Below, one piece after another: positions 9,753-39,423 of a stretch of DNA of 64,000 nucleotides. A program made the position numbers and the translations under genes. A model generated the notes under the pieces. That model saw only the letters and a program-made list of their open reading frames with translations, was not told the DNA's origin and did not search any database. The DNA is from Branchiostoma lanceolatum. Lineage: Eukaryota > Chordata > Leptocardii > Amphioxiformes > Branchiostomatidae. Every line of letters starts with the position of its first letter. The stretch's first letter is position 1. The stretch covers positions 7,629,501 to 7,693,500 of the forward strand of contig NC_089736.1 in the NCBI RefSeq assembly GCF_035083965.1, given 5' to 3'.

Positions 9753-11785
9753 CTAGAGAACTCCCCATTCCGCGATCTCCTGGACCATCCGCAGCATGTT
9801 CTGGTCTGCAGGCAGGACCGTCCGACACATGAGCCGGCAGAACACCCCGTACTGACAGTCGGCCTTGAAGTCTGTCTTCAACTGCTCCAGTGTGTAGCTC
9901 TGTAGACCCGAGGGTTCTGGGGAAGATACCACGTGTATATAATAAATTGAATTGTTAGAAAAGAATGCTGAGTGATGAAATTAGTTTCAGGGGTCCCCGT
10001 TTGCTTCACCAATTTGATATCTTGGTCCTCGAAATTTGCAGCAAAATAATAAAACTTGGCGGATGGAATAAGATGAAAATGAGAAAAGAAAGTCAACACT
10101 AGTTTAAGGAAGGGTGTGTCGGTTTGTAATGTTGCAGTACCTGAAAATACTGCTTGGGGCCCAAAATTGCCATGTTTTTTTGGGACCTAAATTTTTATCA
10201 AACATACCAACGTTCATACAAATCCATCAAAATTATCTTGAGTTTTAGGTGTGAACACACAAACACGACCAAAACAGTACCCCAGTCGGAGATGAACCTC
10301 CTTCTACGAGGAAAGTAGGAAGGAAAGTACTGTACTAGTACTTTTCAGTTAAAGTCTAATACGGAGGAAGACAGGTTCTTACCGCCGAGGTCCAGTGTCT
10401 CCTGCAGTTGTTGGTGATAGTGAGCTAGGATGGCGTCCCTGTGCTTGTGGAAGACGTCCCAACCCGTACCACAAAGGAACAGATTGGCCAGGTCATAGGT
10501 CGGTGGGAAGAACTTGATCCCCTGCCAGTCCACCAGCTTTACTGCGATGGGGACGTCACCTTCGTACTATCCCAGGGTAAACGAAAATAAGAAGTTTCAT
10601 GGAGATGGGGATTAACCTTTAGCATACTAAACGCAACCGTTTTGCACCCAATTCCTTATTTTATAAAGTTAGGCAGCAGGGATAAGGTTAGAAGAGGCAG
10701 CATACATTAAAGCCCAACAGGCTTTCTATAGCAGCTTTGGCCTAGTACTGAAGTCACGTGTCCATACGTTTCCTGTCGTTTCAAGGTGTTATTCCCCTGA
10801 CGAAGGCCCAAGTTATTGCTGATATTTCTGGTAAACGCCATTCCCTCCGAGCGTGCACGTAAGTCTACCATCTTTGACAAGTATTTTTCAATTTAACGTC
10901 CACTGCAATTTATATTGATATTCGCATTTGACCAAAAAATGCATCATCTACCTTGATCATGATGTTGTTGACCCAGCAGTCTCCATGGCTGAGCACCTTC
11001 AGCCTCGGGCCTCTTTCGACATCGAGAACTTTCTGGACGTTTAACCGCTCAAGACGAGCTACAAGGTCTGGATAGTCAGGGAAAACCGCCGCGAATGTCT
11101 CCACACACTTCTGATATTCGTTGATGTAGGCCTTCAGCGTTGGCTCATTGGCTGAAATGGCACCTGACAGGATCCAGTCGTACTTCTCGGGAAGGGGTTT
11201 GCCCAGACGGTGCTCCAGCCGATGAGACTGGCCGTGCAGCTGAGCGAAGGCCCCGACTGTCAGCATCATCTCGTCACGGCTCAGCGGTTGGCGGTTGGGT
11301 TTGATGGAGAATCCCTGGCTTTTTAGATTCTCCATAACCCTGACGGACAACATTGAGCTTGGGTCGGTGGCGGCAAAGTAGCATTTTGGATGGAAGAAGG
11401 AATCAGTATGTGAGTGATCTCCGTCATTTGTGCCTGATGTGCTATGGACCACCACACATGGAAGCTCGGGGACCAAAAGAGAGTAAAACTTCACCTCCAT
11501 CATATCTTTTTGGACGTGAAGAACCTTCGAATATTCACGCCTCGGCCGCTTGAAGTCTGTCAGTTTGGCCACGAGACTGTAGCGCTGACTTGTACCGTTC
11601 CTGGTCCCCACGGCATCAAATGCGACGATGTCGCTCATGAACCCCTCGTCTTGGTTGATGGATCCCTTCACGTAGACGTCCGTGATGGTGACGTCAGGGA
11701 GATCCCTCTGCAGTACCTGCTGCACCCAGGAGGGGGCGATGTCTTCAGCAGAGTGAGGGATGGTGATCCTGCCTGATGTTGTCAT
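9753..11785 (-). CDS. Ecdysteroid-kinase-like (EcKL / CHK-type) kinase 1
   Basis: Predicted small-molecule kinase of the ecdysteroid 22-kinase-like family, related to choline/aminoglycoside phosphotransferases. Insect members phosphorylate ecdysteroids and xenobiotics; the substrate here is unknown. Exons: 10952-11785, 10383-10566 and 9753-9916, phases 0 and 1, total 393 aa, a normal length for the family. Visible motifs: SLVAKL with the presumed ATP-binding Lys74; the catalytic HGDCWVNN (Asp269, Asn274); and KLVDWQ (Asp291), the DFG equivalent, which starts exon 2. I chose the ATG at 11785 because MTTSGRIT aligns with MSASGMIT of the paralogue at 23113-24966; the open frame upstream is AT-rich and unlike the family. 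There is no signal peptide, so it is probably cytosolic. It is not adjacent to its paralogue: the NIK-like gene and a CXXCH gene lie between. Confidence 0.9.
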
Positions 11786-12154
11786 TTCTTTTGAATAGTG
11801 AGGAGAGAATACATAATAATAATATATGTTCATATAGCAAAAAAAAAAACTCAAAATGCACAAACAAAATGCATGGCATGCGCATATATGTTCAACCCGT
11901 AGCCAGGTCCTGTTATACTTTTTGCGAATAGAGTAAGAGGGCCTGCATGCCTTTTCCCGTAGGGAGTAGTGAGCTAATTCGCCGGTCCACTCTAATTCGA
12001 CGTTAAGCGTTATGGGTAAAGTATTCGTAAAGCGTGATTTAATTCCACGCCGCATAAGGCCACAGCAAGTAAATTTTATGGATGACATTACAGTGCGCAT
12101 TGACTTTCGCCTGGTTTCGAAATAAAAAACAATAATTTTATTTACCCTTCGGCA

Positions 12155-12538
12155 ATGGTCAACATATGGAACATGGCACAACATGTCGCAAACGTTTGTC
12201 AGTTCTATCGCCAAAAAAACATCCTTGATGCCGTAAAAAGGCAATATTGCACAAGTGGGCGTCCTTTCTCTATTGTTGATGTGCTGTACAAACCCGGATC
12301 TATCATGATGTTAATGTTGACACCAGTGCTACTGACTGTTTTATTGAATACAGGAATAAAAGAGTTGTTGGTTGTGATACCATATTTTATCGCTTCAAGT
12401 ATTTTTACATGCTTTATGGTATCTTTATGGTATCTTTTTTCTCGCCCGCGCGCACTTAATTTGGAGTCTCTAGAGTATGTCATCCCTAAGATTTACTTGC
12501 TGTGGCCTAATATTTGTTATCCAGAATTGGACTCTTGA
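12155..12538 (+). pseudogene. Possible decayed NAT8/camello-like N-acetyltransferase fragment
   Basis: A 127-codon ORF with two adjacent hydrophobic segments at roughly residues 50-66 and 72-95. Their spacing (KPGSIMMLMLTPVLLTVLL, then a second segment ending SLWYLFSRPR) resembles the membrane-anchoring N-terminus of NAT8/camello acetyltransferases. The acetyltransferase domain that should follow is absent, and I find no continuing exon. It is divergent from EcKL1. It could equally be a chance hydrophobic ORF in AT-rich DNA; treat as weak. Confidence 0.22.
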
Positions 12539-19470: not shown

Positions 19471-21647
19471 ATGTCGCTGAGCAGATTTTGCAAGTTTTCC
19501 GTGTTTGTGGGAACCACAGGCGTGGCGGGAGCTCTCCTTTTCCAACAACACCGACAGACTCGGGAATGGCAGCGGGCAGCACGGCAAGAATTCCGCCGGG
19601 CATCGTTCAACTCCCCACCGCCTGGGTACCGGGGGCCGCTGTTCAGGCCCCGACTGGACTTCCCCTCCAAACCGCCGTCTGGGGACGAGACCTTTCCCTG
19701 GCTGGACCTGGACTTCAAAACAGAACCAGAAAGGTACTTGAATTTACTCGAACTTATGTCGTGATTTTCAATGTCCAAACCTACACAATTTATAATGTAG
19801 GTGACATATGTGCAAAGGTTTGTATTAGTCCTGAAATTCTATTTGAACATATGTACCAGCCTACACATTTTATTATGTAGAACACCTCATGAGTAGGTCA
19901 TTCTAACTCGATGTCAAAAGAAAAAAACAACACTCTAACGTACACGATATCATACTTTCGCTGTGTGCTATATGTTCCTGAAATATAGCTGTCAGTTTAT
20001 TCTTACAAGTAATATGTATAGTGGTTAGATTTACACTGAACAGAATATGATTGGCAAGGCTGTGGTGAGGTCATGACATGCAGCTGTAATGGTTCTCAGG
20101 GTTGTTGCACTTGTCTAGTTACATGTCACATGAACTATAACTATAACTGCAGTTCTAACAACTCACAATGCTTCAGATCGATATCATACATAATTGTCAA
20201 CACATTTCTTATTGATTTAACGTTATATGTATTTCAGATATCTGCGCACCGTTCGTGACTACTGTTTGGAGGGTAACACCGAGTGTGACTTCAGAGTAGA
20301 GGAGAATGGAAGACGGGACTGGTACCACATTCCCTGGATGTCCTTTCTCCCGACGGGACGTGAGCCTATCCACGGGATGACCATGGAGCGGCCCGCCGCC
20401 CCCGGCATGCTGGCGGACACCCAGCGGCGGAGACTGCAGACCTGGGCCGTAGCGTTCTACAACGCGCCCGGTGCCTTCGTCATCGGCAACGTCTGGAAAG
20501 AACCGTCGCGGCCCAAACTGGACGGCGTCGTCTTTCCTGAAGGAACGATCGGTTTGAAGCTTCTCTTCACAGAAGGGAGTGCTGAAGACATCCCGTACCT
20601 GAAGGAAAGTCCCGTCTGGCACGCGGCCATTGCCAGGGAGCCCGAGGCACCTGGTGACAGGGGTCCGCCCGTTGAAATGAGACTCATCCAAGTGGACGTC
20701 GCCGTCAGGGACGAACGTGCTGATATCGGTATGTACAGAATTATCATTAGTTTTTTTAGCATAAGAAGTGCCTTATAAAAGTATACTTATATGTACTGGA
20801 ATTCTGGTTGTTTCAGAGCTAAACGTGTCTTGCATTTATCGTAAAGCTATAAAAAAGCTTAAAAAACTACAGACATTTGTGATGATTACAACTTCATTTC
20901 GTTTTTCTTCCAACATAGGCTGGGTGTTCGGGACGTTTGTATACCACAGCTCCCAGTGCAGCAACGCTCCCTGGCGGAGACTGGTGCCCGTCTGTCTGCA
21001 GTGGGGGAACGACCCGGACCTGACTCAGCAGCGGTACCAGGAGGGCGCCAGGCCCGTACAGACATGGAACAACCCGCGGCTCAGGGACTTGGGGATACTA
21101 CCAAGTAAGTTTGTTTTTCCTATAATGTGTTACACTCTTTGAAATGCTTACCGTGGGTAAAAGAATATATTGTCTTAATTCCATGCACTCGCAATTAAAA
21201 TTCGTCCTTTAATATATCTAAAAGATACTATAAATTACCCGTCGTTTCCCCCTTTCTGTAGGTTCCCGCCCGTACCTGGGCTGGCTGGGCCGGGCAAACG
21301 GACCGGTGGACAACTTCAAGTCATGTTGCGCCTCCTGTCACTCTACAGCCTCTGTACCGGACAAGGACAACGCCGTTCCTCGGGCGATACCCCCAAAGCG
21401 TCCCGAGAACGACGGCGAGCTGATGCGGTGGTTCCGTAACCTGAAAGCAGGGCAACCATTCGAGGAAGGCCGGAAGTCCATGGACTACTCCCAGCAACTC
21501 AAGAGTAGTATCAAGCAGTACAACGAATGGGCAAAGGAGCACAGACCCAAGACACTTCTGAACAGGGTTGTGCTTTGGTGGCAGGGACTGCTACAGGTGC
21601 ATCCGTTTCCTCGTTCATCAGCGCCATCTAGCGGAAAGGATAACTAA
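19471..21647 (+). CDS. CXXCH (cytochrome-c-like) protein A, membrane-anchored
   Basis: Four exons: 19471-19733, 20238-20728, 20919-21104 and 21262-21647; intron phases 2, 1, 1; 441 aa. The N-terminus (MSLSRFCKFSVFVGTTGVAG) is a short basic segment plus a hydrophobic stretch, residues ~9-24, fitting a membrane anchor or mitochondrial signal-anchor. Conserved blocks shared with gene B: FPEGT, a DRGPP loop, GWVFGTFVYHSSQCS, WGNDPDLTQQRYQEGARP, GPVDNFKSCCASCH (CXXCH Cys336-His340) and MDYSQQL/LDYSLQL. CXXCH is the covalent c-type haem motif. I associate this architecture with uncharacterised bacterial cytochrome-c family proteins, not with any animal family I know; this is recollection, untested. 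Function unknown; an oxidase or peroxidase role is possible but unsupported. The 3' end converges on EcKL2. Confidence 0.82.
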
Positions 21648-22050
21648 TGCAAGGATAACTAGTCGATCGACGATAACAAATATACTAGACTCAAAAACAC
21701 TTATTAATCAGGTTATGTTATGTCCGATGAGCAAGTTTCGCCGTCCTTTGCTGCCAAATAGAACAGTGTGAAAAGGACAATAAGTGCACTCCCTCTGTGG
21801 GATTTAAAACTAGAATGTGTACATGTACGATTGTGTGTGCAAAATAACAATGCTGCTATACATGTAATTATTACTGCCAAATCAAATCAATTGATTTGCA
21901 ATTCTCAAATAACAAAAGCAACCCAGATTAAGTTCCGCAACCGTTAAGGGCACTGAAATACTGTTGTGTATATCAAGTTGTTGCTACATGAAAAAAAAAT
22001 ACTGAAAAGAGTGTAAAGCAAAGAGGAATTAACTTTATATATTCATAAAG

Positions 22051-22080
22051 ATGTACATATCGTAATCATAAGTGTGACGT
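22051..22080. repeat. Exact 30-nt direct repeat, copy 1, in the gene A 3' UTR
   Basis: Starts ATGTACATATCGTAATCATA and is identical over 30 bases to 22244-22273, 193 bases downstream. Flanking sequence (aatgtaaag..ggaatta before, and a ttgtat tract after) is also loosely repeated, so about 90 bp was duplicated. Confidence 0.8.
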
Positions 22081-22243
22081 CAAAAGATTTGTATTGAACC
22101 TAGCAAAGGTTAGCTTACAAAGCTTACATAGTAGTATAGGCTATGATGAAGTGAAAAAATATATAGTGGTGGGAAACTGACTATTAGAAAAGAATGTAAA
22201 GAAAAGGGGAATTAAGGTATTTTGATACTGTGTATGCATAAAA

Positions 22244-22273
22244 ATGTACATATCGTAATCATAAGTGTGACGT
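22244..22273. repeat. Exact 30-nt direct repeat, copy 2, in the gene A 3' UTR
   Basis: Second copy of the 30-nt sequence at 22051-22080. The exact core within otherwise diverged flanks suggests either a recent duplication plus indels or constraint on the core. Confidence 0.8.
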
Positions 22274-22615
22274 TAAGAATTTGTATGGAGGTTCTCTAAT
22301 ATATGCATTAAGTTTATTTTCTACATATCACAGTGAAGAGAGTGAATATATATGAGATTATGAAATTTATTCTGACTGAAGAGACAATGTTCAAAGCATA
22401 TAATTACATGTATGTAGCAAATGCTGCAAATCTACTCACTGCCAATGTCTGATTGTAAAATGCTCTTTTGATAAAACATGTGGAACGTGCCATTCCATTA
22501 CATGATGTACCGGTAATGAGTAATGATGTTAGACTAGTACACTAGTATAAATAGGTCGTAGCTGTTGATATTTCATGCTATTTTCTATACATTGTACCTG
22601 GTGCAATTGTTGTGC

Positions 22616-22621
22616 AATAAA
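22616..22621 (+). promoter_or_regulatory. Polyadenylation signal of CXXCH gene A
   Basis: AATAAA about 970 bases after the stop codon, in the context gtgcaataaacattgact. It is the first canonical signal I find downstream on this strand. Confidence 0.6.
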
Positions 22622-22834
22622 CATTGACTCTTGTATACAAAAAGAATACGCCATCATGTGTCAGAGACAAACTAGTACTACAGACTAGCAAGGTAGTTAG
22701 GCATAGACGAGATAGTTTATTTTTGCATACTATATGACGAAATCAAACAAATATAGAAAAAAAACACTTTCGAACGTTTCAATCAATATCGGCTTTCGGT
22801 CAATTTTTAATGGAAGCAAAGAATTTAAACGGAT

Positions 22835-22840
22835 TTTATT
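22835..22840 (-). promoter_or_regulatory. Polyadenylation signal of EcKL2
   Basis: AATAAA on the minus strand about 273 bases past the EcKL2 stop. Together with the gene A signal it places the convergent transcript ends roughly 200 bases apart. Confidence 0.5.
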
Positions 22841-23112
22841 AGAAAAAAATCGAAATTAAGCTTTAAAATCACTGTAAGTAATCCCGAGTGGTATTACATC
22901 CGTGAAGAAGGTATTGTTTTTAGTGTGTCTGTCTGCTTGCACACTCACACTTTAGTACAGTTGGAGCAGACTAAAGCTAAATACAGCTGGATCTCAGGCT
23001 GCTTTGCAAACAAGTCCAACTGTCTTGAATATTTTACACACTTGGTAAACAATGTTGCTCCTGCCCGACACTGAAGTTATGAAACACATCTGAAGGGAAG
23101 AAACATCTAGAC

Positions 23113-24966
23113 CTAGATCACGCCCCAGTCTTTTACTTCCTGTACAATCCGCAGCAGTTCTGGCTGTTGGCTGGGGAACAGACCCGGAGCAAATATCATC
23201 CGCTCAAAAACACCGATCGCACAGTCAGCACGGAAGTCTGCCTTCAACTGCTCCAGGGTGTACAGATGCAGACCAGCAGATTCTGTAGGGAAACACAATG
23301 AAGATAATAACTATGTGTGTATGTAGTCACCGCCGCCCCAACGTTGACTGGTTGCATAGATCCAAGATGGAGACCAGCCTTACGGGATCTTACTGAAGGC
23401 TCAAACAATGAGAGACAACACATGATGAGGGGGATACAAAGCTTAGTCATGTTTGGGACCGCATTCGTACCACTGCAGCGCCCTCTAGCGGTAATAGGTA
23501 GATCTGTTATCATTACGTTGGCAAGTAAATTCCTCATTGCTAATGGCTGTGTATAAAACAAAACCTTATTATCTCATTGTAGAAAAGGTATTATCTACAG
23601 TTGGGTGTTTTTTAATGTACTTGAAGAGATTAAGTGAAATATATCGCTCATGACTGGTTTCTTTGGTGCTGTCATATATAGCACCATTTTGAAGTTGATA
23701 CCCACTCTTTTCTCCCAAGGTCTTCTGTAGTTCTTGGTGATAATGTTCCAAGATGGCGTCCCGCTGGTTGTGGAAAATGTCCCAACTTTGGAACATAAAG
23801 AGGACCACCAGGTCATAGGTCAGCATTCGGTAGGAAGGAGTCTGCCAGTCCACCAGCTTTACGTCCGTGGCTTTACCGTCTTCGTACTAAGAGGGGGCAC
23901 ACAAAAATAAACTTTGCATAAAAGTTGAGCAATACATACAGTCCCGTCATATAGCAGCAATGGTAAACTGCACTTAACTTACTTTGAATAATAACATAGA
24001 ATAATAACTAATTTAAATGATAACATGGAACAAATAAATAATAAATTACTGTTCAAAAACACAGAACAAAAGTAATAAGGGGAAAACAGGTTCCCTTCAC
24101 GACAATACCATCCTGAATAGCTGAGTAGATGTTTGCTGTACCTTGAACATGATGTTGTTGTTCCAGCAGTCCGTATGACACAGAACCTTCACCCTCGCTG
24201 GGTTCTTCACTGCCTCAATAATCATCGGGACAGTGTTCAGCTTCTCAAGACAAGCCAACAGATCTGTGGCGTCGGGAAAGGCTTCTGCGAAGGTCTTGAG
24301 ACCCTCGTGGTAGGATGCTTCATACCACTGTTGTTTAGTAGTGTGGATGTCCACCATCCAGTCGTACCTGTCGGGTAGGGGGGTTCCAGACTGGAGCTCC
24401 AGCCGATGAGAGAGACCGTGGATCCGGGCCAGAGCGCCTACTGCCAGCTTCATCTCCTGCAGGTCCAACGCTTGTGGGAACGGTTTGGTGGAGAAGCCCT
24501 GAGTTTTCAGATTCTCCATCACACGGACGGACATCTTGGAGGTCTGGTCAGTCGCGGTGAAGTAGCACTTTGGGACAGGCACGGCGTCTTCATCGGTGCC
24601 GACTCCAGAGTCCTTGGGTGCGGGGAACACGGACTGGAAGTCCGGGACTGCCACGGAGTAGAACTTAGACTCTGCCGTGTCCAGTTCGAGATAATCCTCC
24701 TCAGTCATGAAATCTACCACCTCCATAATGTGAAAACTTGTCAGCTTGGCCACGAGACTGTACCGCTCCTCTTTACCGTTCTTGTTCCCCGTAGCAACAA
24801 AGGCGACGAGGTTGTTCATGAAGCCCTGACCTTCACCTATGGGTCCCTCGATGTTGACCTTGGTGATGGTGACGTCAGGGTCGGCATTTTTGAAGACCTG
24901 CTGGATCCAGGGCGGGGTGATGTCTTCTACTGACCGTGGGACGGTGATCATGCCGGACGCTGACAT
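23113..24966 (-). CDS. Ecdysteroid-kinase-like (EcKL / CHK-type) kinase 2
   Basis: Paralogue of the kinase at 9753-11785, with the same three-exon structure and phases: 24142-24966, 23706-23886 and 23113-23282; 391 aa. Motifs: SLVAKL with Lys74, HTDCWNNN (Asp266, Asn271) and KLVDWQ (Asp288), so all key residues of an active phosphotransferase are present. The last exon (LYTLEQLKADFRADC) aligns closely with that of paralogue 1. I chose the ATG at 24966; an in-frame ATG at 24993 lies beyond a credible acceptor (tcctttgcag at about 24990), so the 5' UTR is probably spliced. The exon 2 donor (GAAAAGA followed by gtgggt) is fixed by phase but atypical at position -1. Substrate unknown; a detoxification or small-molecule conjugation role is inferred from insect relatives. 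Divergent from CXXCH gene B. Confidence 0.9.
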
Positions 24967-25983
24967 GTTTAGAGAGATCGGAGCTTTCTGCAAAGGACAA
25001 TTGGAGTCCTGTAGAGCATGTAAATGCAGAACGTTTTCTGCTCTATGCTTCCTAAAAGTGTTGTTGCTATGTGTTTAAGGTGCGCCGATGTCTTAAAGCG
25101 AAATGATTTGATGTTATCCAGCACCAAGTTTACTTCATCTTCAAACAAAAAGAACAGTTGAAATCTCCAGTGTAGTTTTACGCTTCCATTCACTTTGGCG
25201 GCCAAAGGCTTCCGTACCGACACCACCCCATCCGATAAATATGGCACGCTCCCTATTGAACTTCACATGCTCCCCTAAACCTATTATACCAGTGGCCGCC
25301 ATCTTTTATTTTGTCGTGCTGTGTTTACCTAAAAACGGTGTCCCAAGTCAACTTGAAGTACAAACACAACCCCAAATTCCACAAATTCCAGGTGTTCTTG
25401 CATCTTTGATGCATGGTACCTTACTATAGACGTGCAGAAATACAGTAGAAAGCCAAACCATTTTCCACAAATACCTGTTACCTCGTAAGGACCTCAGGGT
25501 TCAGGACTGAGACGATGTATTACAGCTTGAGAGAGGACTCTCTATTTGACCCTCACGGCCTCACGTCACCTGATGTCGACTCTATGTGCGGACAAACCAG
25601 CGTGGGTGCTGTGGGAAGGGCAGGCCGGCCTGAGGGCAGGGTATGGTTTTACGGGACGATCCAAAATGGATCGGAAGGTAGGGTGTGTGAACAATTGGAC
25701 CGATTGGATTTCACAAAAACGCAAGCGCACAAACAACACAAACAACAGACATACAAAGACGGACATTGATAAAAAGAGGCAAAATTCCTACACGGCAGTG
25801 ACCAATGCCACCCCCATGTTCATTTTTGGTTCGTCCCAGGTAAATTCGGGTCAGGAATACAAACACGCCCACAAATACCTACAGATGCATTGGAAACCGA
25901 CAGGTCACCATGTAAGAATGGAATGTAAATATATACAGAAAGAAAGACAAAGAAAGACAAAGAAATTTTGGAATGTACATGTA

Positions 25984-26003
25984 GTGTGTGTGTGTGTGTG
26001 TGT
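25984..26003. repeat. (GT)n microsatellite
   Basis: About ten GT dinucleotides in a row. No further significance seen. Confidence 0.85.
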
Positions 26004-27412
26004 TAGAGAAAGTGAATGTGCACTACTTTAGCCGTACCGTCAGGTCTTTGATTTTTCAAAACCACCGTCATTATGCAAGGGTACCCGGGTCACAACGGGA
26101 TACAGGCCAGGCCATGTCATGTGACAGCATGTGGGTTAATCTCCAAGATGTCGAGATGGAAGGATTCTTGAATCAACTGATCCCACTCTTAATCACAAAT
26201 TGGATTACTATCTTTGAGATGCAAGCCATAAACACATATCATTCATCTGAAATAATGATAGGGCCCAAAATTTATTTTCAGGTGAATTATGAATTATGAA
26301 TTCTCTTTCATTGATATCATTGACTTTAGATGAAAGCTAGTGTATTACTGACAGAATTGAAGTAGGAAAGTTTCAGTATCCGATTGATAGGTCGGACGTT
26401 TTATTTTTGTCCTGAGTGCTGCGGTTACGCGCAGGAGGCACAAAAGCGCCTCTTGTGGATAGCGGGTAATTGCAGTTTGCCATAAATACCGTTTCATTCG
26501 TTAAATTTGGGGGACATTTTCATTGCCTAAAGAGCAACTGTGCTTGCAATAGAAATCAAAACATCTGTAGAAAAACTATTTGTTTATTGGATATGTAGCC
26601 ATAGTTTTGATAAAAGGTGATTATTTGGATATTGAACCCACTGGAAAAGCCTAATTGTCGTATGAGACCGTAGGCACAGTGCCAAGGTACATGAATTCTA
26701 TAAGATTATACAGTCTGAAGCCCGTATTAGACAGAGTTTTTTTCACTCGCAGATTGTGACCAATAAGCGAAACAATTTGAAAGAAAAATCTATCTAAAGT
26801 CCCAAAAACCATCCTTCATTTTCATTTATCTATTTATTTTAGAAACAATAAGTTCATGCTAAAAGTAGGTACATCATGAGAGTTCGTCATGCAGAAATTA
26901 TCTGACTTGATTAAGCTCTGGGAATTACGTTTCTTCGTATCAAAATGTATTTCTTATAGCAACACCTTGATTTTGATGAAGACATTTATAACAGCATGAT
27001 AACTTATAACATTTGAACCTCTGAATGGTGGGGCTGTAAAATGTACATATTTAACATTCTAATGCAAAAATCCTAGCTTGTGTATTCAACTCATCTTACA
27101 CAATGTACATATAGTTGTGGTACGTTCCATAACAGCACACAAGCGAACATTCAGACGTTTAAAAACAGATATGACGTATCGAAACTGGTTTCTGTCCTGT
27201 CAACATTGGCAACGGTGGGACAATGGCCGTCAACAAGCAAAACACTTTCACCTGTTTTTATATAGGGTACAATCAAACAAGTTCAAGGCCTATATGTACT
27301 ATTCTGCGTGTCAGAATTTCCAGCGATATTAAAAGGTTAATTAATATTTGCCAACATGTGTTGTAACATACTTTAAGTGACTTTGTCGTGACGAGAATAT
27401 CAATAGGTTACA

Positions 27413-27464
27413 TATATAAACCCGTAAGTTGGCTGAGTGAAAGTTTCGATGACGTAACTTAAAA
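27413..27464 (+). promoter_or_regulatory. Core promoter of CXXCH gene B
   Basis: TATATAAA at 27413-27420, about 150 bases before the start codon, followed at 27441-27455 by AAGTTTCGATGACG. The latter resembles the TTTCGGTGAC that follows the TATA box of gene A. The shared arrangement supports common regulation inherited from the ancestral gene. Confidence 0.6.
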
Positions 27465-27571
27465 CCTTACGTCACGTATGTAACTTCCCCACATACATTG
27501 TATGCTAGTCTATTGTTGTCTTTAAACCATACTGCGCAGTTAGGAATACTGCTCTTAGTCTTACCGCTAAA

Positions 27572-30500
27572 ATGCTTTCTAGCCATGTTAGTCGTGCTGT
27601 TGCTTTAACCGGTGCCGCGGGCGCGGTAGTCGGTTTAGTGGCGGGGCTGCAGCGACGGCACACCGACGAGTTTCAGGCGGCTGCCCTGGGCGAGTTCTCC
27701 CGCCCGTCTTACAACCCTCCACCCGCCACTTATGACGGGCCCGTCTTCAAGCCTCGACTCGACTTCCCGAGCTGTGCAAACCCAAGGAACGAGGCTTTCC
27801 CCTGGCTGGGCATAGACTTCAAGGCGGAGCCAGAGAGATATCTGCGTACGGTTCTGGACTACTGTTTGGAAGGAAATGTCGAGTGCGACTTCAAGGTACG
27901 AGTGTCTGTAAACTGTATAGTTTTCGGTGCGACGCACCAGTCTAGCAGACACGCCATTTCATATATTTCAGGTATATACAAAGACCATGGGTTGTTGACT
28001 TCCACGGCCGTGGAACTAACCACGTTTGGTGGTGAACTTCATTACCTGGGGTAGTGTGAACATTTGGGGAAATGTGAATCGCGAAATGGGGATTCTAAGA
28101 CGCCATAGTTGGTGCTAAATACTCAACATTTGCCCTATGCCTTTAGGTGTCTTCGTGCATCCATGTCCTACTTATTCACTGTCCCCTGAATTGTGTTAAT
28201 TTACTAGTAACTTTTTATTGTCTGTTGGTCCCTTTTCTGTCATCCAAGAATGATACTGTCCCACTAGCACTAAACTAACCTGATTTGATTGTAATGCAAA
28301 CGGTACCATCATTGTTCCAGACTGGTACAATCATTGTTGCTTACTCTACTCTACTCAACAGACAGTTTTACAAACGTCTTAACCTCACCTTTCCTTGAAA
28401 ACTGGTTTTTCTTCTTCATTTTGCTGCCATGCAGTGTTATGGCCTGGATATTTTCAAAAGCAGCCACCCGGAACATTTGTTGCCTGCACAATTGTGTGAC
28501 AACACCCCCTTTCTAATTCTAGCAGTCAAGAATTTCAAATTGTTATGCTCCATATTTCATTTATTAGCAAAAAGAAAATCGCTATCACTAAGTCCTTACA
28601 CCAACGTGAAGTTCACCACTAAAAGTGGTCATGGAAGCTAAGAATATTATTCAAGAACATCAAACAATACACTCTATGGTCTTCGATAACACAAAAATGA
28701 ATGGTACAAACTGTTTCTTGTTAGGCTGGCATATTAAGATATTTGATATTCATTAGTACTGAATGGTACGTGTGCAAACTTGTTTGCGAACGTATACATA
28801 AAGTTGCTTTTATTTTCACAGACAGATACGTCTGATACCAGATGGTATAAACAGTGCTACACTGCTATCACTGTGTATATCGGCTTTTCCATTCATCTAA
28901 TACCACGTCACTATGCAGTCTATGCTTAGGTCAGATTCATTCTACCACAATTCCTACCTAAAAACCCGTCTGGAGTCGCCTGTGTACACAGACTGTACAT
29001 GTTCCATGTGCATGTGTTGTTTGTATATATTCTATGTTTTCATGTATGTTTTTAATATGGGTCTGTTTGTGCCTGAAATAAAGGATTAATAATTTATTAT
29101 TAGGTGGAGCAGAACCGGACCCGTGACTGGTACCATGTACCGTGGATGTCCTCCCACCCCAAAGGACGCGAGCCCATCCACGGCATGACCATGGAGAAAC
29201 CGTCCAAACAGGGGATGCTGTCGGACTCGCAGCGGAGGGAGGTGCAGAACTGGGCGGTCGCCTTCTACAACTCGCCCGGAGCGTACGCCGTCGGCCGAGT
29301 CTGGTCCCTCCCCTGGCAACCTACCCAGGACGGCGTCGCCTTTCCAGAGGGTACGGTGGCCTTTAAGTGGTTTTTCACACAGGCGACGGAGGAGGAAGTT
29401 CCTTTTCTTAAGGGTGCTCCGGTCTGGAAAGCGGCGATCGCTAAAACCCCACGAGAGCCCGGGGACAGGGGTCCGCCTGTGGATACCAGACTAATTCAGA
29501 TGGACGTCGCCATCAGAGACGATAGAGCCGACATAGGTAAGGAAAATGGTCAAAAGACTAAGTTTCAATAAGAGACGCAATCCATTTACATAGGTAAGGC
29601 AAGAGGTTGTATCTCCCTACAACTTCCTCGGGCAAATGAAGGACTAGGTTTCAATACTACACGTAATTCAAGTTTTTGCGTACGTACACATTGTCCCCAA
29701 TACAAGGCCTGTAAGTTGACTTGAACTTCTAAACAAACAAGAAGGCGGCAAAATAACAACACATGGCGTTGGTAGTATAACAGTTGTGTTGTTATTTCTA
29801 GGCTGGGTGTTCGGGACGTTTGTGTACCACAGCTCGCAGTGCAGTAACGCCCCCTGGCGGAGGCTGGTGCCCGTCTGTCTGCAGTGGGGAAACGACCCGG
29901 ACCTGACTCAGCAGCGGTACCAGGAGGGCGCCAGGCCCGTACAGACATGGAACAACCCCCGGCTCAGGGACTTGGGGATACTGGCTGGTGAATAATGCAG
30001 CTTTGCATATTTCTACTGAGTAGTTGCAAAGGACAGATGGTTTTGGTGACAAATAGAACTGTCTTTTGTTGTGCAAAATAACTAATAATATCAGTATTTT
30101 CATATATCAGTTTTCGCACCATGGAATGCTAACACCCGTTTCAGCACCAAGGAATGTTAACAGCAGTTTCAGCTCCATGGAATGCTAACACTTGTTTCAG
30201 TACCATGGAAAGCTAACACCAGTTCCAGTACTGTGTAAGGCTAACACCAGTTACAGTACCATGGAATGCTGACATTAGTTTCAGTCCCATGGAAAGCTGA
30301 CATCAGTTTCATCACTATGGAATGCTAACAGACGTTTTAGAACCATGGAATGCTAACATCAGTTTCAGTACCATGGAATGCTAACATCATTTTCAGCACC
30401 ATGGAATTCTAACACCAGTTTCAGCACCATGGAATGCTAACAGCAGTTTCAGCACCATGGAATGCTAACAGCAGTTTCAGTCTCAATATTGTGTTGTGCT

Positions 30501-30928
30501 GTTTTTCTCACTCATCACAGTGTTTTTTGATTCCTATTATTCTTTTAAACCTGCTATTTTTTCCAGCTTCCCGCCCATACCTGGGCTGGCTGGGCCGGGC
30601 AAATGGACCGGTGGACAACTTCAAGTCCTGTTGCGCCTCCTGTCACTCATCGGCCTCCGTACCAGACAAGGACAACAAAATCCCTCGCGGTGTCCCCCCC
30701 AACAACGACCAAGCCCTGTGGTGGTTCCGTAACCTGAGACCCGGACAGGCCTTCGAGAAGGGCGGCACGTCACTGGACTACTCCCTACAGCTCAGCAGCT
30801 GTACCACCCAATACCACAACTGGAAGAAGTCCTACCTACAAAATACCCTCTTAGGTAGACTAAAGGAATGGTGGCTGGAGGTGCATCCATTTCCAACAAC
30901 AGCGCCTCCTAGTGGCAAGGATGATTAA
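27572..30928 (+). CDS. CXXCH (cytochrome-c-like) protein B, membrane-anchored
   Basis: Paralogue of the gene at 19471-21647. Four exons: 27572-27895, 29104-29536, 29802-29987 and 30567-30928; phases 0, 1, 1; 434 aa. It begins MLSSHVSRAVALTGAAGAVV, a basic then hydrophobic N-terminus suited to a membrane or mitochondrial signal-anchor. The haem motif CCASCH (CXXCH Cys337-His341) and surrounding GPVDNF are conserved. Introns 2 and 3 match gene A exactly, but intron 1 follows CDFK (phase 0), whereas in gene A it splits the Arg codon of PER/YLRTV (phase 2), about 20 codons earlier. Exon 3 matches gene A at every residue up to its last codons, while exon 2 is much more diverged. Intron 3 holds a 13-copy minisatellite. 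Divergent from EcKL2 and convergent with MAIP1. Function unknown. Confidence 0.82.
27896..29103 (+). other. Intron 1 of CXXCH gene B (1.2 kb)
   Basis: AT-rich intron with gtacg donor and attattag acceptor, at a position with no counterpart in gene A. No gene or intact element recognised inside. There is an AATAAA at about 29076-29085, shortly before the acceptor, so premature polyadenylation is conceivable. Confidence 0.6.
30117..30480. repeat. 28-bp minisatellite, 13 copies, in intron 3 of CXXCH gene B
   Basis: Thirteen head-to-tail units of exactly 28 bases, with no length variation over 364 bases. A unit begins CACCATGGAATGCTAACA and most end GTTTCAG. Most units therefore carry an acceptor-like TTTCAG directly followed by CACCATGG. 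The last two copies are identical; inner copies differ by several substitutions. Confidence 0.92.
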
Positions 30929-30953: not shown

Positions 30954-30959
30954 AATAAA
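30954..30959 (+). promoter_or_regulatory. Polyadenylation signal of CXXCH gene B
   Basis: AATAAA only 26 bases after the stop codon, implying a 3' UTR of about 50 bases, unlike the ~1 kb UTR of gene A. Confidence 0.6.
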
Positions 30960-39000: not shown

Positions 39001-39423
39001 ACATCTTTGTGATTTTTTTAAATACATGTGCAATGTTCAGTGATAACATAAGAAAAATCTTAACAATTTATATTTAACAAGGTACATGCAACCCTCTTCA
39101 AAAAAGTTTTCACTTTGAGTACAACAAAGTCTATATACAATGCAACATTATTGTATTTTCTTCCAGCTTTGTGGTTCCACAATGTAGTCTCTCTTGATTT
39201 TGGTGTGGCCGTCAACGTATTTTGGAGACACCTAGATCCTGTTTTTTATGACAACAAGGATCCCTATGGCAACAAGGACTTATTATCGGGTCAAAGGGCA
39301 ATGCAAATACTGGACAGAGCCCTAAAAACTTTGGATGACCTTCCTGTGGAGTATAGGGACTTCTATGGGCGAAGGATGGTGTCCAAAATACAACAGACAG
39401 TATTAGATAAAGAACTACCATGA
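36059..39423 (+). CDS. TYW5: tRNA wybutosine-synthesizing protein 5 (JmjC hydroxylase)
   Basis: Fe(II)/2-oxoglutarate-dependent JmjC-type oxygenase that hydroxylates a wybutosine precursor at position 37 of tRNA-Phe, giving hydroxywybutosine. Eight exons: 36059-36142, 36745-36899, 37147-37216, 37450-37494, 37881-38018, 38320-38407, 38626-38742 and 39167-39423; phases 0, 2, 0, 0, 0, 1, 1; 317 aa against about 315 in human. Iron ligands are visible: HYD (His162, Asp164) at the end of exon 5 and the distal His237 in ALWFHNV at the start of exon 8. [20 protein letters not shown] and the C-terminal [11 protein letters not shown] are diagnostic. AATAAA at 39747-39752 is the likely polyadenylation signal. 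Divergent from MAIP1. No truncation or missing key residue. Confidence 0.95.
36315..36360. repeat. (GT)n-rich microsatellite in TYW5 intron 1
   Basis: Interrupted GTGTGT/GTTTGT tract of about 45 bases. Confidence 0.8.

Follow-up and report, generated by a model that had tools for sequence, protein, structure and literature searches.

We analysed a forward-strand stretch of 64,000 nucleotides from the amphioxus Branchiostoma lanceolatum (contig NC_089736.1, positions 7,629,501 to 7,693,500; hereafter the window), in which two four-exon genes for proteins with a c-type haem motif lie on the plus strand. Gene 1 spans 19471-21647 and encodes 441 amino acids, and gene 2 spans 27572-30928 and encodes 434 amino acids. 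The exons of gene 1 are located at 19471..19733 (the N-terminus, including a hydrophobic stretch), 20238..20728 (where a cytochrome P460-like core begins), 20919..21104 and 21262..21647 (containing the motif CCASCH and the stop codon); those of gene 2 are located at 27572..27895, 29104..29536, 29802..29987 and 30567..30928, the last of which likewise contains CCASCH and the stop codon. All six introns are GT-AG and the reading frame is kept across every junction in both genes, bearing out an earlier sequence-only reading that had proposed two spliced genes with products of these lengths. Introns 2 and 3 are common to both genes, each in phase 1, and intron 1 differs in position, being in phase 2 within Arg88 in gene 1 and in phase 0 after DFK in gene 2. 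Behind gene 2 a poly-A signal (AATAAA) is present at 30954, and neither AATAAA nor ATTAAA was found within 21648-22400 after gene 1. Intron 3 of gene 2 contains a 28-base tandem repeat of 13.3 copies (30108-30480).

Two sites in the window match the DNA pattern for CCASCH, 21324-21341 and 30629-30646 (mean of 0.00 in 100 shuffles), and both proteins carry WGNDPD and GPVDNF upstream of it, as the sequence-only reading had stated. The CXXCH haem motif itself, CASCH, is encoded at 21327..21341 in gene 1 (Cys336-His340) and at 30632..30646 in gene 2. When the proteins were compared with a plasmid collection by tblastn, 28 records matched, and the best bacterial match was a protein of Variovorax sp. 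RA8 annotated as 'cytochrome P460 family protein' (43.5% identity, E 1e-81), a similarity that exceeds chance by far. This long bacterial protein (WP_162590200.1) is homologous over its full length and has all the key residues; the bacterial proteins differ in having no introns, a signal-peptide-like N-terminus and Ser before the haem motif, and none of 90 has Ala as the first X residue of CXXCH, which both animal copies have. The Pfam family Cytochrome_P460 (PF16694) scored 16.3 and 19.3 bits for the animal proteins against a curated cut-off of 27 bits, so that we class them as divergent relatives, not as PF16694 members. The predicted model of a bacterial member has the five-stranded antiparallel beta-sheet of the P460/c'-beta superfamily, and all 92 sequences carry CXXCH in the domain's C-terminal part, as the superfamily requires. 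Judged from these sequence comparisons, the animal proteins belong to a long branch of the cytochrome P460/c'-beta superfamily. An assignment to an uncharacterised bacterial cytochrome-c family, which had been suggested before, thus stands as regards the bacterial relatives and the c-type haem motif, but the family is this long branch and not generic cytochrome c. Note that a sequence search of the PDB gave no match, and our profile A3 found there one unrelated HNH endonuclease (E 1.4); NCBIfam gave no match for gene 1, and for 47 bacterial members three weak lectin matches and one weak fimbrial match.

Cytochrome P460 of Nitrosomonas europaea and Methylococcus capsulatus (PF16694) resembles the long family in its fold, as predicted for the bacterial member, in CXXCH and in aligned Lys, Gln and Asp residues. 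On the other hand, the animal proteins have about 440 residues versus roughly 140-170, with long insertions and an N-terminal extension, score under the Pfam cut-off and occur in an animal; their cross-link and activity are predictions. To compare the sites, a profile of the 92-sequence alignment (2 animal and 90 bacterial sequences) was aligned by hhalign with short P460s (17 bacterial sequences, plus a chain fragment of Methylococcus P460, 6hiu), with E-values for single comparisons of 3e-06 and 8.2e-09. In the alignment, WPDGAILVK78 lies opposite FPEGTIGLK195, and Q100-A-D102 opposite Q239-V-D241. According to Table 2 of PMC11928373, the cross-link of Methylococcus P460 is formed by Lys78 and its distal carboxylate is Asp102; PMC12352625 describes a hydrogen bond between Asp102 and Gln100 in one chain. 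K195 of the long family therefore falls on the cross-link lysine position of 6hiu, and D241 on the distal carboxylate position (Glu96/Asp102 in P460s), with Q239 on Gln100. The Lys195 codon lies at 20557..20559 in gene 1 (plus strand; 29365-29367 in gene 2) and the Asp241 codon at 20695..20697 (plus strand; 29503-29505 in gene 2). K195, Q239, C336, C339 and H340 are invariant in all 92 sequences, and D241 is present in 91, the sole exception being the bacterial sequence L007. Because the 80 genome loci were retrieved with patterns spanning the columns near W253 and R324-N331, conservation in those columns is partly due to selection; K195, Q239, D241 and CXXCH lie outside these patterns. The profile alignment begins downstream of the distal capping position (Phe41/Arg50/Phe76 in P460s) and stops short of CXXCH, since W253 and the motif are about 83 residues apart in the long family. 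The P460 residues covered by this alignment are conserved in the animal pair and in the bacterial family alike.

The two animal proteins are identical at 291 of 442 alignment columns. Between the genes, nonsynonymous divergence (dN) is 0.22-0.24 and synonymous divergence (dS) ranges from 1.06 (NG86) to 2.30 (YN00), the low dN against the high dS indicating purifying selection on the proteins and an old duplication. Per exon, dS is 2.33, 1.52, 0.22 and 0.90 for exons 1 to 4, and exon 3 is 96% identical in nucleotides between the genes, with unlike introns on either side. Exon 3 thus looks like a case of homogenisation by conversion limited to the exon, perhaps by way of complementary DNA. A tblastn search of the window yielded no third copy or fragment, matches outside both genes having E of about 1 or worse. 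As to the surroundings, two ecdysteroid-kinase-like genes (PF02958), 47% identical to each other, lie on the minus strand at 10913-12310 and 24100-25074, giving the order kinase, P460, kinase, P460 along the window, an arrangement reminiscent of the duplication of a block of two genes. Furthermore, human C2orf60 (3al5), which we take to be TYW5, is matched in its C-terminal part by a plus-strand exon at 39064-39420 (E 4.1e-32). Neither Rfam families nor tRNAs were found in the window.

The long P460-like family is patchily distributed in bacteria. A single-sequence scan of genome contigs matched seven stretches, none of which was confirmed, and a scan with our alignment A2 gave 190 confirmed stretches out of 219, the best 80 of which were kept (L010-L089). 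These best 80 of 190 come from Pseudomonadota, Acidobacteriota, Actinomycetota, Bacteroidota, Planctomycetota, Verrucomicrobiota, Armatimonadota, Chloroflexota and other phyla. Phage records gave no match, and among viral contigs one of 14 stretches was confirmed (L090). This bacterial-type homologue (L090:4752-6176), whose contig in the viral collection is 113,838 bases long, had the top best-segment identity (47%); its neighbours are not especially viral-looking in a list of open reading frames, and it was entered as sequence only. At E<=1e-20, the long family was present in 1 of 385 drawn genomes of the alphaproteobacterial class, that one being the centre genome, and in 5 of 369 genomes of the class of L072, centre included, in which short P460 (PF16694) was present in 40 of 143 genomes. 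Around a sample of 47 bacterial loci, 46 downstream neighbours were found, of which 4 short ones were dropped, and 46 upstream neighbours. Among these no conserved partner gene was seen, the commonest Pfam family occurring in 2 of 42 downstream and 1 of 46 upstream neighbours, with one similar pair in each set; the neighbourhood thus offers no hint of function.

The nearest relatives found in this analysis are all bacterial. A careful tree was made from 52 rows (2 animal and 50 of the 90 bacterial sequences, near-copies and some long branches being left out), in which the animal pair joins nine rows with support of 95/84, namely Stappia, Granulosicoccaceae, Sulfitobacter and six rhizobial or unnamed rows including two plasmid records. 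A quick tree built from all 92 rows places the animal pair inside an 18-row group with a Shimodaira-Hasegawa-like approximate likelihood ratio (SH-aLRT) value of 94, drawn unresolved. Approximately unbiased (AU) tests, for groups named after the tree was seen and with uncorrected p values, disfavour grouping the animals with L051 (p 0.003), with L090 (p 0.025) or with Variovorax and L020 (p 0.014), and leave a grouping with L072 and L012 unrejected (p 0.103). From these sequence data, acquisition of the animal genes from bacteria is likely. Specifically, an ancestor of the animal would have acquired a long P460-like gene, the probable donor being a member or neighbour of Pseudomonadota, early enough for intron gain, duplication and divergence; such an old acquisition would fit the introns, the two diverged copies and a best tree adjoining proteobacterial members. 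We consider it probable, taking the explanation as a whole, that genes 1 and 2 are tandem paralogs of one long P460-like protein of old bacterial origin.

The closest relatives being bacterial could also point to contamination or mis-assembly of bacterial DNA. However, the genes have six introns, their third-position GC (0.70 and 0.71) is like that of the kinase-like genes (0.64 and 0.70), the paralogs are old, and the TYW5-like exon lies in the same window. The setting is therefore animal-like, in line with the sequence-only reading, and contamination is unlikely, indeed very improbable. A rival reading is vertical descent, in which the P460-like family would be old in eukaryotes, perhaps going back to the alphaproteobacterial ancestor of mitochondria, and would have been retained here and lost in many other lineages. 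In its favour, the group closest to the animals in the tree consists mainly of Alphaproteobacteria, and the gene is old in its host, as indicated by its introns and by dS of 1.5-2.3 in exons 1 and 2. In addition, since the tree is unrooted and includes no other eukaryote, transfer is likely at most, and mitochondrial origin stays a rival. However, the bacterial family is scattered across many phyla and plasmids, which points to frequent transfer, Alphaproteobacteria rarely carry it, and the best-studied eukaryotes are not known to carry a long P460-like protein. We thus regard vertical descent as rather unlikely and prefer old acquisition from bacteria.

The sequence-only reading asked whether haem is attached here at all, given the substrates of animal holocytochrome c synthase (HCCS), and this question is well posed. 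PMC11727520 names cytochromes c and c1 as the proteins to which the human enzyme attaches haem, with CXXCH and a helix upstream being read, and describes covalent c-type haem in animals for these two cytochromes only; PMC4158909 states that HCCS needs Phe or Tyr three residues ahead of CXXCH. Both animal copies read N-F-K-S-C and then CASCH, placing Phe at exactly this spacing, where mitochondrial cytochrome c has Phe and c1 has Tyr; otherwise no similarity to these cytochromes was found, and the animal proteins have no evident upstream recognition helix. In the 90 bacterial sequences, the same position is Pro in 70, Phe in 4, Tyr in 2 and Trp in 1. The idea that Phe is an adaptation to HCCS was rejected, because all four Phe-bearing bacteria (L018, L019, L026 and L072) belong to the nine-row group of the animals, so that inheritance explains Phe as well as adaptation does. 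Two features count against recognition by HCCS: Gly-Pro lies 9 and 8 residues upstream of CXXCH, and the only helix there in the bacterial model, at 294-298, runs from the first Cys to the His of the motif, with none upstream. The surroundings of CCASCH therefore seem to give mixed signs on HCCS recognition.

Regarding localisation, the best 17-residue Kyte-Doolittle mean at the N-terminus is 1.49 in gene 1 and 2.05 in gene 2. The hydrophobic stretch noted in the sequence-only reading is thus real but modest in gene 1, so that its role as an anchor is plausible at most, and membrane anchoring of the proteins is a guess. In both N-termini, no acidic residue occurs before position 32, and basic residues flank the hydrophobic stretch; these features would suit a mitochondrial inner-membrane anchor and equally a signal anchor of the endoplasmic reticulum. 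In 11 of the 107 columns that are at least 80% uniform in bacteria, the animals share another residue, one that no more than 5% of bacteria have; the new cysteines G277C and S335C are among these. Cysteines 104, 265, 277 and 335 (gene 1 numbering) are present in both animal copies and in 1, 0, 0 and 0 of the 90 bacterial homologues, respectively. These four are candidate disulfide partners, and the animal-specific cysteines make an oxidising compartment plausible.

In the mechanism that we propose, the protein would reside in a compartment with oxidising conditions, the simplest choice being the mitochondrial intermembrane space, where an N-terminal anchor would hold it, and haem would be attached via CASCH. 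Lys195 would cross-link to the porphyrin and Asp241 with Gln239 would relay protons, so that the protein may oxidise hydroxylamine or a related N-O compound, or handle nitric oxide (NO), passing electrons to a partner such as cytochrome c. The mechanism of hydroxylamine (NH2OH) oxidation by cytochrome P460 is summarised in PMC11928373. Against haem attachment, HCCS may refuse the substrate, leaving an apo- or redox-regulated protein that keeps the fold and has no c-type haem in the animal. The description of HCCS as serving cytochromes c and c1 and reading an upstream helix, the Gly-Pro, the helix confined to the motif in the bacterial model and the four extra cysteines speak for this reading, but CXXCH, K195, Q239 and D241 are unchanged in both copies despite large divergence, which is hard to account for without haem, and Phe has the spacing that HCCS requires; we consider an apo-protein unlikely. 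Cytochrome c'-beta, of the same fold, would bind NO or CO without a cross-link or oxidase activity. The residues that separate the classes are Met or Phe and Ala or Gly in c'-beta (PMC11928373, Table 2), but Lys and Asp in the animal and long bacterial proteins, and c'-beta has neither lysine nor carboxylate in the distal pocket. Both copies being P460-like there, a c'-beta-like gas binder is quite unlikely, and judged by the residues P460 chemistry, with NH2OH oxidation, is more likely than gas binding. That the animal makes a lysine-cross-linked P460 haem, as a third covalent-haem CXXCH protein matured in the mitochondrial intermembrane space and converting hydroxylamine or a related N-O compound oxidatively into NO or nitrous oxide (N2O), is a tentative proposal that we hold with some doubt.

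In the open-access literature searched, no paper was found that connects an animal gene with cytochrome P460; the search did not extend to subscription papers or sequence databases, so that an annotation may already exist in a database. A 2026 compendium of metazoan transfers (PMC13342648) has neither 'P460' nor 'cytochrome' in its main text, and a review of the P460 superfamily (PMC11928373) treats proteobacteria, its main text having neither 'eukary' nor 'animal'. The analysis brings to light a long, nameless bacterial branch of the P460 superfamily. Furthermore, a conserved P460-type active site in two animal genes would make it testable whether an animal forms a haem-lysine cross-link, whether HCCS can mature a third substrate, and whether hydroxylamine oxidation or NO/N2O production takes place through it in an animal. 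If the proposal is true, this would be an animal with a haem chemistry so far studied only in bacteria, and bacterial nitrogen-cycle haem chemistry would be continued in an animal.
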